Source: an uncultured Erythrobacter sp.
GTDB lineage: Bacteria > Pseudomonadota > Alphaproteobacteria > Sphingomonadales > Sphingomonadaceae
DNA length: 64,000 nucleotides
Reading direction: 5' to 3'
Assembly (NCBI GenBank): GCA_947499095.1
Contig: CANMMR010000003.1
Location: forward strand, 1-64,000
The notes below the pieces were generated by a model. It did no database searches and was not told where the DNA came from. It was given only the letters and a program-made list of their open reading frames with translations. Positions 55,957 through 59,595 of the stretch are shown here, piece after piece. The position numbers were made by a program, and so were the translations under genes. The first letter of the stretch is position 1. Each line of letters begins with the position of its first letter.

Positions 55957-57047
55957 TGGTCCTGTCCCGCGGCGATGAATATCCGATCCACCAGACGCCC
56001 GAGCCGGTCGCCTATTCCGGCACCGATCGCAATTTCTACGACCGCTATTTCTTCAACGGCTATGCCCCCGACGGCAGCGGTTTCTTCGCTCTGGCGCTGG
56101 GCGTCTATCCGCATCTCGACGTGATGGATGCGCATTTCAATGTGGTGCGCGACGGAGTGCAGCATTGTATCCACGCGAGCCGCGAGTTGAAGATGGAGCG
56201 CATGGACCTGATCGTCGGGCCGATCCGCATCGAGGTGATCGAACCGCTCCACAAGCTGCGCCTGATCGTGGACGAATGCGAGGGCGTTTCGGCAGACCTC
56301 ACCTTCACCAGCCGCGCCTTCGCGATCGAGGAACCGCGCTTCACGCATCGCATCGGCCCGCGTGCATTCATGGACTACACGCGCATGACGCAGAACGGGC
56401 ACTACGAAGGCTGGATTTCGGCCGATGGTGACCGGCGCGAGCTGGCGGCGGGCACAGCCGGCACGCGCGATCGCAGCTGGGGTGTGCGGCCCATCGGCGC
56501 CCGCGATCCGCAGCCCATGCCCGGTGCCCCGCTGCCCGGCTTCTTCTGGCAATGGACACCGATCAATTTTGCGGGCGGCAGCCTGTTCTTCCACGTCAAC
56601 AATGACGAGCACGGCCGCGCCTGGAATACGCGCGCCGCCTGGGCACCCGACAATGCAGAGGCCAGCGACATCCGCGAAGGGCACGGCAGCATGCGGACGC
56701 GGCTCGCGCCCGGCACCCGCTGGCCGACCGGCGGAACGCTGTCGCTGGCCGTGCCCGGCGCGCCGGAGCAGGTGACGCTCGAACCGCTGTCACGCTTCCA
56801 GATGCGAGGGCTGGGGTACACCGATCCAGATTGGGGGCACGGGCTCCACCACGGGCCGCTCAAGGTGGCGCGCGAGGATATCGAGCTGGATCAGCTCGAT
56901 CCGCTAGAGCCCCAGAACCTCCATGTGCAAATGCCGATGCGCGTTACCGGCAGCGCGGGCGAAGAGGGTATTGGCGTGTTCGAGCAGCTCATCATCGGGC
57001 CGTTCTCACCGCTCGGCCTGGGAGAATTCCTCGACGGTGCCAGCTAG
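55953..57047 (+). CDS. uncharacterised protein paired with the kinase-like gene
   Basis: A 364-residue protein without signal peptide. It looks like two beta-rich halves: an N-terminal YPIHQTPEPVAYSGTDRNFYDRYFFN block near residues 10-35 and SWGVRPIGARDPQPMPGAPLPGFFWQW near 173-199 in the centre, a pattern I associate with the AttH/DUF7064-type lipocalin-like proteins, but I am not sure. It is translationally coupled to the kinase-like gene (ATGA) and its stop overlaps the convergent transporter gene by 4 bases. Probably part of the same catabolic route. Confidence 0.6.
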   Translation: MMVLSRGDEYPIHQTPEPVAYSGTDRNFYDRYFFNGYAPDGSGFFALALGVYPHLDVMDAHFNVVRDGVQHCIHASRELKMERMDLIVGPIRIEVIEPLHKLRLIVDECEGVSADLTFTSRAFAIEEPRFTHRIGPRAFMDYTRMTQNGHYEGWISADGDRRELAAGTAGTRDRSWGVRPIGARDPQPMPGAPLPGFFWQWTPINFAGGSLFFHVNNDEHGRAWNTRAAWAPDNAEASDIREGHGSMRTRLAPGTRWPTGGTLSLAVPGAPEQVTLEPLSRFQMRGLGYTDPDWGHGLHHGPLKVAREDIELDQLDPLEPQNLHVQMPMRVTGSAGEEGIGVFEQLIIGPFSPLGLGEFLDGAS

Positions 57048-57874
57048 CGCGAGAGCAACAGCACCGCCACGCCGCCGAAGATCACGATGCCGCCGCCGAT
57101 CTTCAGCCGGTCGGGGCGTTCGCCGAGAAACAGCGTCGCGATCAGCAGCGCAAACAGGATCGAGCTCTCACGCAAGGGAGCGAGACGTGGCAATTCACCG
57201 ACCGAATAGGCAAGCATTGCAAGGCCATAGCTGACCACGCCCGCCGCTCCGGCTGCGACGCAGCTCTTCCAGTTGCGGCGTGTGTAGTCGATGAAGGCGC
57301 GGCCACGCCAAGCTCCAAACGCCCCGCCGATCACAGCTCCCAGCACGAAGAAAGCCCATGCGATGTAGGAAAAGGGCGTAGGAGCGTTCCGGACGCCGCC
57401 CGCATCGAGTACGGTGTAGGTTGCAACGGCAAGGCCGGTAAGCAGCGAATAGCCCAGCGCCTCCCGCGTCAAGTTGCGCCCTATCGCGCTGAGAAGGATC
57501 CCGCTCGTGACCAGTCCCATACCGATTGCGACCGGGAGAGTAATCGCGTCGCCCAGGAACACTACTGCACCGAAGGCCGCGAAAACCGGCGCAGTGCCCC
57601 GCATGACGGGATAGGTCGCGCTCATGTCGGCAACCTCGAACGCCCGCACCAGCGCGAGGAAATAGACGGCATGGACGACCAGCGATCCGAGCAGCCAGCC
57701 CCAAGCGCCATGCGGCGGCGGGAACAAGAAGATCGCCGGCAGCACCAGCAAGCCACCACTCAGATCGATGAGCGCCCGGCTTGCGAGTTTGTCTTCGCCC
57801 GATTTGAGGACGGCGTTCACCACCGCATGGATCGCGCCGGACGCGATCATCATCAGGGCGGCGATTTCGAGCAT
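57044..57874 (-). CDS. EamA/DMT-family transporter
   Basis: A 276-residue inner-membrane protein with about ten hydrophobic segments in two halves, of the drug/metabolite transporter family: FEVADMSATYPVMRGTAPVF near residues 84-103 and a mirrored C-terminal half ending RLKIGGGIVIFGGVAVLLLSR. It lies 4 bases after ribH on the same strand, so it is in the ribB-ribH operon. That position suggests flavin or a precursor as cargo (RibN is an EamA-type flavin transporter), though most EamA proteins carry other compounds. Confidence 0.85.
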   Translation of the reverse strand: MLEIAALMMIASGAIHAVVNAVLKSGEDKLASRALIDLSGGLLVLPAIFLFPPPHGAWGWLLGSLVVHAVYFLALVRAFEVADMSATYPVMRGTAPVFAAFGAVVFLGDAITLPVAIGMGLVTSGILLSAIGRNLTREALGYSLLTGLAVATYTVLDAGGVRNAPTPFSYIAWAFFVLGAVIGGAFGAWRGRAFIDYTRRNWKSCVAAGAAGVVSYGLAMLAYSVGELPRLAPLRESSILFALLIATLFLGERPDRLKIGGGIVIFGGVAVLLLSR

Positions 57875-57878
57875 TTAC

Positions 57879-58301
57879 TCAGCGGGCGAAGCGCCCCTGC
57901 AGTTCGAGCAGCGCCAATGCAGCCTGCGCCGCCTCGCCGCCCTTGTTCTTCTGCTTCGGATCGGCGCGGACCAGCGCCTGGTCCTCGTTCTCGACCGTCA
58001 GGATTCCGTTGCCGATCGCGATGCCATCCATGGTCAGCGCCATGATCCCGCGCGCGCTTTCGCCCGCGACGATCTCGAAATGATAGGTCTCGCCGCGGAT
58101 CACGACGCCGATGGCGACGAAGCCGTCGTACTGCCCGCTGTCGGCGGCCATCGAGATTGCACCGGGCACTTCCAGCGCGCCGGGCACGGTGAGCACTTCG
58201 GCCTCGTGACCCTGCGCTGCCAAAGCCTCGCGCGCGCCGTCGATCAGCATGTCGTTGAGGTGGTCGTAGAAACGCGCTTCGACGATCAGGAACTTGGCCA
58301 T
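57879..58301 (-). CDS. ribH: 6,7-dimethyl-8-ribityllumazine synthase
   Basis: Condenses the pyrimidine intermediate with 3,4-dihydroxybutanone phosphate to lumazine, the step before riboflavin. The 140-residue protein has [20 protein letters not shown] near residues 4-23, [16 protein letters not shown] near 39-54, [19 protein letters not shown] near 65-83 (His base) and [15 protein letters not shown] 58301 starts MAKFLIVEA. It follows ribB by 4 bases. Confidence 0.95.
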
Positions 58302-58305
58302 GGAA

Positions 58306-59544
58306 TCACTCCGGAATGGGACGGTGGTCGACGATGTTGAGGCCATAGCCTTCGATCGCCACAACGTTGGGTTGCGAATTGCTGAGCAGGATCATGTCCT
58401 CGATGCCGAGGTCGGCGAGGATCTGGGAGCCGATACCGACATTGCGCTCGGCCTCGCTCTCGCCATAGCCGCTCGCCGGACGGCCGGTGATGATCACGAT
58501 CACGCCCGAGCCATGATCTCCGACTGCCTGCATCGCCCGTTGCAAGGTGCGCTTGCGGCCACCCGGTTTGCCGAGCACGTCGTCGAAGATCGAGATCGGA
58601 TGGACGCGGGCGAGGGTGGGTTCGCCGGGCCTCACCTCACCCTTCTGGAGCACATAGCTCTCGCTGCCGTCGACCGTGTTGCGATAGGTCATCATGCGCC
58701 ATGCGCCGCCATAGTCGGACTCGAAATTGTCCTCGGCCACACGTTCGACGAGATGGTCGTTGCGCATGCGATATTCGATGAGATCGCGGATCGTGCCGAT
58801 CTTCATCTCGTGCTTGCGTGCGAACGTGACGAGGTCGTCGAGGCGGGCCATGGTGCCGTCCTCGTTCATGATCTCGCAGATTACGCCAGCAGGATTGAGA
58901 CCTGCGAGGCGCGAAATGTCGACTGCCGCTTCGGTATGACCGGCGCGCACGAGGACCCCGCCGTCACGCGCAGCCAGCGGGAAGACGTGGCCAGGAGTGA
59001 CGATATCGTCCGGGCCCTTGCTGGCATCGATCGCCACTGACACGGTACGCGCGCGGTCTGCGGCGCTGATGCCGGTGGTGACTCCGGTCTTGGCCTCGAT
59101 CGAGGTGGTGAAGGCTGTTTGCATGCTTTCACGATTGTCGCGGCTCATCGGTTCGAGACCGAGCGCCTCGACCCGCTTGCGGTCGAGCGAAAGGCAGATG
59201 AGCCCGCGGCCGTGGGTAGCCATGAAATTGATCGCATCGGGCGTTGCCATCTGAGCGGGGATGATGAGATCGCCCTCGTTCTCGCGATCCTCGTCGTCGA
59301 CGAGAATGTACATCCGGCCATTACGGGCTTCGTTGATGATCTCCTCGGCACCGACGATCACAGGCGTTTCGTCGTTCGCTTCAAGGAACGCCTCGAGCTT
59401 TGCCAGCGTATCGGCAGTCGGGTTCCAGCCGTCCTCGGCGCAATCGCGCAGGGTATTGGCATGCAACCCGGCTGCGCGGGCGAGGCCAGCGCGGGTCATC
59501 AGACCCTGCGAGACGAGCGAGCGAACTTTGTCGATAGTGTTCAT
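58306..59544 (-). CDS. ribB: HTH-RibB: 3,4-dihydroxy-2-butanone-4-phosphate synthase with DNA-binding N-terminus
   Basis: The 412-residue protein has three parts. Residues about 1-55 form a Cro/C1-type helix-turn-helix ([20 protein letters not shown] then [14 protein letters not shown]). Residues about 60-260 are the RibB domain ([55 protein letters not shown]) that makes 3,4-dihydroxybutanone phosphate from ribulose-5-phosphate. The rest resembles GTP cyclohydrolase II ([25 protein letters not shown]) but lacks its three zinc-binding cysteines, so that activity is unlikely. The family usually has no HTH. The start at 59544 makes the complete HTH; a palindrome covers the promoter. Confidence 0.9.
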
Positions 59545-59552
59545 GGCCCGAC

Positions 59553-59595
59553 CGACTATCACATCGAAATGTGATGTCAATCAACGCAATCACAT
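59553..59595 (-). promoter_or_regulatory. ribB promoter with palindromic operator
   Basis: A perfect TTGACA (-35 type) lies on the minus strand at 59575-59580, and directly after it is an 18-base palindrome, ATCACATTTCGATGTGAT (59558-59575), filling the spacer to a possible -10 (TAGTCG or TGATAG). The half site ATCACAT recurs on the plus strand at 59589-59595, 31 bases from the first, about three helical turns. This is the layout of a repressor operator. No FMN-riboswitch-like sequence is evident in the 116 bases between ribB and tRNA-Lys. Confidence 0.65.

Follow-up and report, generated by a model that had tools for sequence, protein, structure and literature searches.

BirA, NadR and PutA each join, in a single protein, an enzyme and a ligand-sensing DNA-binding repressor that acts on its own pathway. 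Feedback control of riboflavin genes is likewise the role of the flavin mononucleotide (FMN) riboswitch (RF00050), but this is an RNA element. A protein counterpart in archaea is RbkR, presented in the available excerpt of PMC8305020 as a regulator with an N-terminal helix-turn-helix (HTH) domain on a riboflavin kinase. The stretch of DNA analysed here (64,000 nucleotides of contig CANMMR010000003.1 from an uncultured Erythrobacter sp., referred to as the window) encodes a protein, HTH-RibB, that resembles RbkR as portrayed in that excerpt (PMC8305020) in being an enzyme of the riboflavin pathway with an HTH at its N-terminus. It differs in that the enzyme is a bacterial 3,4-dihydroxy-2-butanone 4-phosphate (DHBP) synthase and in the phage-Cro-like operator predicted at its own promoter (O1); with respect to the ligand-sensing BirA, NadR and PutA, it has a single apparent target promoter. 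We consider, with a probability of about 0.87, that the capture of a phage Cro module made this RibB bifunctional, an enzyme and at the same time a repressor of its own ribB-ribH operon that would act through O1. From the domain, the operator, the promoter geometry, the co-occurrence of head and site and the phage relatives with matching palindromes, all of them read directly in the sequences, we infer DNA binding, use of the dimer and repression by HTH-RibB. The coordinates of the features are collected in Table 1.

O1 forms the core of the 18-mer ATCACATTTCGATGTGAT (59558-59575), a palindrome with 0 mismatches. An earlier note on this DNA had described an 18-bp palindrome adjoining a perfect TTGACA and a third half site 31 bases away, and both were found, with TTGACA at 59580-59575 next to the 18-mer and ATGTGAT at 59595-59589. 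O1 is the sole site within three mismatches in the window; shuffled sequences average 1.36 such sites, so that this count carries no weight alone. When the 2.96-Mb genome was searched at up to two mismatches, O1 was the sole perfect copy and one other place with two mismatches was seen, the reversed control also giving one place.

The HTH-ribB loci used for comparison were gathered from genomes of the family and from named genome records. For each, the 200 bp upstream of ribB were searched for TCACAT-N4-ATGTGA, and the closest match was taken as the site. The 140 distinct upstreams (156 rows minus duplicates identical in site and head; the filter missed heads with an HSN helix and later loci) showed 0 mismatches in 78 cases, 1 in 47, 2 in 13 and 3 in 2. 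At most one mismatch was thus present in 125/140 upstreams, as against 6/3249 control windows of the same loci and 2/2800 shuffled upstreams. In 38 further HTH-bearing loci (duplicates, other helix spellings and later additions) 0, 1 and 2 mismatches were counted 22, 13 and 3 times, and a site with no more than two mismatches therefore precedes 176 of the 178 HTH-ribB genes, some of them duplicates. None of the 47 HTH-less ribB loci (40 of the family and 7 of the order) had such a site, their best matches showing 3 to 6 mismatches. The co-occurrence of HTH and palindrome that the earlier note had proposed is borne out by these figures, and the lack of conservation that it had named as an argument against its own reading did not arise, because the two features go together across the family.

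In the 122 loci where the site lies near the start codon (the near class), CACA and TGTG are invariant with the exception of one base in one locus, and most positions outside the promoter elements vary freely. This variation bears on the reading that the inverted repeat acts at the RNA level and folds into a hairpin of the 5' leader, where ATCACAU-UUCG-AUGUGAU could give a 7-bp stem. Non-pairing combinations at the variable positions of these 122 loci are, however, about as frequent as independence predicts, the predicted transcript begins downstream of the palindrome, and Rfam gives nothing there at the gathering score; the hairpin, for which no covariation was seen, was rejected as hardly credible.

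At the level of whole genomes, the exact sequence TCACAT-N4-ATGTGA is present in 104 of 249 family genomes (one copy in 98, two in 6) and its reversed control in 0/249. These genomes were classed as 196 HTH+ (all those not placed in the other two lists), 43 HTH- and 10 unclear, and the exact site falls in 103/196, 1/43 and 0/10 of them, respectively (Fisher p 5.6e-11, kinship ignored). In the lone HTH- genome, G057 (Tardibacter chloracetimidivorans by protein identity), a putative prophage encodes a Cro-like protein that is free-standing and related to the head, and the exact site is 2.8 kb away from its gene. Among the matches listed (of about 110), 70 of 75 exact places lie no more than 150 bp upstream of an HTH-ribB. 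A tree was built from 109 RibB cores (63 of them HTH+, comprising 35 random lower-numbered loci and the higher-numbered ones; the divergent RibBA of locus L303 was excluded). In the best tree the HTH state requires 7 changes, of which well-supported branches impose 3, and site and HTH go together in 3/3 well-supported independent pairs (HTH-less rows together with L304 and L305 were scored by hand); with only three pairs on strong branches the sign test is underpowered and proves nothing alone.

Small free-standing relatives of the head, of about 60-90 residues, were found in phages and putative prophages (L206, L207, L217, L218, L219, L225 and L257-L263), and in L206, L207, L218 and L225 the Cro-like gene is placed beside or opposite a gene read as C1-like. 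These proteins belong to the same HTH family as HTH-RibB, and their genes are likewise preceded by 16-bp palindromes centred on N4; several of the palindromes end 13-14 bp before the start and repeat at about 16 and 30-32 bp. They differ in being free-standing and in that most of those compared combine a DT helix with a CGCAT half site. In 9/9 loci with the helix xDT[TV]LR the site is within two mismatches of TCGCAT-N4-ATGCGA and farther from the TCACAT type (L264, the same as L218, and L216, the same as L217, are omitted from the helix-operator counts). Among the free-standing heads with H[A/P]N, L206 and L217 are nearer to the TCACAT type and L265 gives a tie. All 140 RibB heads of the distinct-upstream set have A-N or P-N at these helix positions, and a few others have S-N. 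The strongest indication that the site is recognised by the head comes from the covariation of helix and operator, taken together with the co-occurrence of HTH and site; the correspondence of helix residues with operator bases can moreover be tested.

The position of the palindromes is also shared. The best site ends 13-14 bp before the start in L257, L261, L262 and L263, like that of ribB, and in L259 (helix INITTLR) ATGCAC-N4-GTGCAT ends 13 bp before it. A perfect GCATAT-N4-ATATGC palindrome ends 13 bp before the ATG of a Cro-like open reading frame (ORF; helix IHRNTLN) in Pseudanabaena phage Pan3 (L219). The Cro-like gene of G057 is preceded by ATGTGAT-N13-ATCACAT-N4-ATGTG, which reproduces the two-part layout and the spacing seen in the window; in addition, a pair of sites 31 bp apart is located 2.8 kb from the Cro-like gene. 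No such palindrome was seen before the gene in L224 and L266, and only poor ones in L267. Two further features of these phages were observed. The Pan3 frame (2001-2189, 62 residues) is unannotated and runs opposite annotated genes, and the Cro-like genes of L261, L262 and L263 are accompanied by about three palindromes spaced by some 16 and 30-32 bp, an arrangement that resembles a compact immunity region.

These relatives are also relevant to whether a separately encoded regulator of the CRP/FNR or XRE type reads the palindrome, the HTH of RibB being a relic or serving another role. The TGTGA half sites do resemble those of CRP, but their order is reversed (TCACA-N6-TGTGA versus the consensus TGTGA-N6-TCACA), and for this reason a CRP-type site was rejected. 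Any other regulator would have to account for a site that is gained and lost together with the HTH and for the presence of such sites before the genes of the free-standing relatives, which makes this explanation very improbable. As for the origin of HTH-RibB, domain and operator would have been taken over together from a small Cro-type regulator of a phage or prophage; a transfer in the direction from phage to host is suggested by the diversity of the free-standing set. If so, HTH-RibB would clearly illustrate how a phage switch can be domesticated to serve a metabolic enzyme as its head. An extended version, in which a whole phage Cro with its operator was captured and a ligand-responsive RibB and incoming phages cross-regulate each other through the shared TCACAT-N4-ATGTGA, appears unlikely. 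If true, the enzyme would repress phage promoters, or phage Cro would repress riboflavin synthesis of the host.

The assignment of the head itself comes from several matches, which are weak for the window protein and better for its relatives. In the window protein HTH_31 (E 0.018) and HTH_3 (E 0.067) are the Pfam hits, both under the gathering score, and the heads of relatives match HTH_26 (best E 4.9e-4; E of 0.01 or less in 4/12 members). A profile of the head and its phage relatives has an XRE regulator as its best match in the PDB (E 0.0034), and in PHROG the heads match phrog_8, a transcriptional regulator (best E 3e-4, 5/11). The AlphaFold2 model of the head has a mean predicted local distance difference test score of 82.5, with a regular third helix not formed, and its Foldseek matches are weak and mostly to XRE-type repressors. 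The profiles of the relatives, and the fact that the head groups with small Cro-like proteins as one family, support what the earlier note had read in the N-terminus, namely an HTH of the Cro/C1 type. In 385 genomes of the class searched at E of 1e-6 or less, the head occurs within RibB in 4 members of the family and as small free ORFs in two others, and no HTH-RibB fusion outside the family was seen in this sample. Four small Cro-like proteins (P0156, P0192, P0236 and P0240, 65-83 residues) are labelled 'DHBP synthase / GTP cyclohydrolase II', apparently by name transfer from HTH-RibB, which suggests that some database names of such proteins are wrong.

Zymomonas mobilis is a sphingomonad. 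Its mapped promoters, as given in the excerpted text of PMC7566282, have TTGNNN at -35 and TANNNN at -10 with no T at -7; spacer and discriminator are most often 17 bp and 6 bp long, respectively, and leaderless transcripts exist. A consensus sigma-70 scan found no promoter, because it requires the T at -7 that is absent from the mapped rule in that excerpt (PMC7566282). When the 122 near-class loci were inspected for these elements, 99 had TTG at a spacing of 16 or 17 bp and 102 had TA after the palindrome. If the discriminator is taken as 6 bp, the predicted start coincides with the ATG in 63 of the 102 TA loci and is no more than 2 nt away from it in 101. TTG and TA flank the palindrome at normal spacing, and O1 thus fills the spacer between -35 and -10. 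TGTGA occurs at offsets -21 to -19 in 66/122 of these loci, and a second site is recognisable in 47/122, at a distance of 30-32 bp in 35 of them, about three helix turns. As in self-regulating enzymes, the predicted operator lies in the promoter of the protein's own pathway, and, as in XRE proteins, a candidate palindromic operator precedes the protein's own gene.

This layout is that of a repressor, in line with the repression suggested in the earlier note, and the step from geometry to repression is one that we infer. Some XRE proteins activate transcription, and HTH-RibB might in principle activate its own promoter; a protein bound between -35 and -10 elements separated by a normal spacer of 16-17 bp should, however, exclude the polymerase (judged from the promoter rule in the excerpt of PMC7566282), which leaves activation with a slim chance.

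We return to autorepression. As judged from its sequence, HTH-RibB probably switches off its own production. The Cro-like N-terminal domain would bind O1 in the spacer of its own promoter, probably within the RibB dimer, and the second site O2 located some 31 bp upstream may often assist binding at O1. Bound HTH-RibB would then block RNA polymerase, so that transcription of ribB-ribH is held down once the level of enzyme is sufficient. RibB is known to form dimers. The frame of the protein is set by its relatives: a longer frame (58306-59580, minus strand) begins with TTG, and the relatives conserve instead the ATG at 59544-59542, which gives 412 residues. The enzyme fused to the HTH retains the conserved RibB motifs, the three of them being kept in 138, 137 and 139 of 139 HTH+ RibB entries (the window protein is included twice, as P0001 and L003). 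Beyond the head, the protein comprises a DHBP synthase domain and a GTP cyclohydrolase II (GCHII) domain that is degenerate, with no riboflavin kinase domain among those found. Three motifs mark a live GCHII. All three are missing from the GCHII domain in 139/139 HTH-bearing entries and in 46/47 HTH-less proteins (49 minus the HTH-bearing L304 and L305). The domain is equally degenerate without the HTH; its degeneracy is hence not special to the HTH form and did not originate as a partnership with the HTH. At another place, the window's genome encodes a second GCHII domain that is nearly complete (profile positions 5-165 of 165). Almost every RibB protein compared from the family and the order still carries the GCHII domain in its degenerate form.

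The earlier note had suggested a protein-based flavin circuit, with the enzyme sensing substrate, product or flavin. In such a circuit ribulose 5-phosphate, the product or a flavin would tune DNA binding by being bound to RibB or to the dead GCHII domain. A conserved enzyme and a DNA-binding head on one chain fit this proposal, as do the precedents of BirA, NadR and PutA and, in the portion of PMC8305020 at hand, that of RbkR. Against it stand the degeneracy of GCHII irrespective of the HTH, which gives no sign of an origin as partner of the head, and the apparent target of one promoter. Such sensing adds to autorepression and does not exclude it; plain autorepression that depends on concentration accounts for this anatomy too, and we hold a metabolite sensor to be possible, with the odds somewhat against it.

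The proposal had been worded as a circuit in place of a riboswitch. Rfam showed no FMN riboswitch (RF00050) in the window, and none was found in the window's genome by a search that matched 7/14 control genomes. It was absent from 79 of 80 family genomes (35 HTH+, 43 HTH- and 2 unclear), searched with stricter filters under which weak matches may be lost. A riboswitch beside HTH-RibB in relatives, which the earlier note had considered as contrary evidence, was not seen (0/35 HTH+ genomes). The single match is in one of the 43 HTH- genomes (G204; L303, 551-3501), where it heads a ribD-ribE-RibBA operon with the GCHII motifs kept and no HTH. Its genus mates G048 and G142 have the HTH and the exact operator, and the operon of G204 was possibly acquired. 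The claim stands in so far as this genome has no such riboswitch, but 42/43 HTH-less genomes lack one too, and the HTH did not simply replace a riboswitch within the family. If autorepression holds, many Sphingomonadaceae would have a route to riboflavin control without the FMN riboswitch, 196/249 of the sampled family genomes being classed HTH+. No description of HTH-RibB was found among the matches listed in a search of open-licence papers, and as far as these searches show, a RibB that would regulate itself by a phage-type switch, although common in the family, is apparently undescribed in them.

The gene context supports ribB-ribH, though not the EamA transporter gene, as the target that the earlier note had extended to all three. 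Neighbours were counted by locus, some genomes being represented twice: ribH is near in 154/170 HTH+ loci and EamA in just 12/168 HTH-ribB loci. HTH-less ribB directly follows ribE in 11/11 loci, with ribH next (L240, which bears the HTH, and L175, which starts at a contig edge, are left out). In the HTH-less L028 a ribD-like gene, by ORF reading, precedes ribE, an order that matches a ribD-ribE-ribB-ribH operon. In 26/164 loci HTH-ribB comes after ribE, and elsewhere it is separate. It is plausible that the head and a promoter of its own made ribB-ribH an independent unit.

Table 1. Features of the HTH-ribB locus, in window coordinates.
Feature	Position	Strand	Remarks
Upstream half site ATGTGAT (putative remnant O2)	59589..59595	minus	31 bp from the same half of O1
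-35 element TTGACA	59575..59580	minus	TTG here or one base further upstream in 99/122 near-class loci
Operator O1, TCACAT-TTCG-ATGTGA (predicted)	59559..59574	minus	18-mer 59558-59575
-10 element TAGTCG (TANNNN)	59553..59558	minus	TA in 102/122; the 16-bp spacer is O1
Predicted transcript start, 6-bp discriminator, 2-nt leader	59546	minus	from locus geometry and the Zymomonas promoter rule
HTH-RibB, 412 residues	58306..59544	minus	ATG start at 59544; stop codon included
Probable Cro/C1-type HTH, residues 1-57	59374..59544	minus	recognition helix at about residues 28-34 (HANTLRD), by alignment
DHBP synthase (RibB) domain, residues 67-258	58771..59346	minus	PF00926, E 9e-84; motifs conserved
Degenerate GTP cyclohydrolase II domain, residues 267-412	58309..58746	minus	cysteine motifs missing
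ribH (lumazine synthase)	57879..58301	minus	usual downstream partner; near in 154/170 HTH+ loci
EamA-family transporter	57044..57874	minus	local companion; near in 12/168 HTH-ribB loci

Exact sites away from ribB promoters were also recorded. The six genomes with a second exact site are G141, G144, G205, G237, G242 and G252, and off-promoter exact sites are also present in G143, G192 and G057. Their neighbours, by ORF reading, include enolase and an FtsB-like gene (L248), an aldo/keto reductase (L157), a prophage-like region (L250) and others. A wider regulon was rejected, since no consistent target emerged among these sites, most of which we ascribe to chance, even though the reversed control was absent from all 249 genomes. 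In G141, itself an HTH-RibB genome, a perfect copy of the operator (L254, 1501-1516) is placed about 130 bp before a terminase-like gene.
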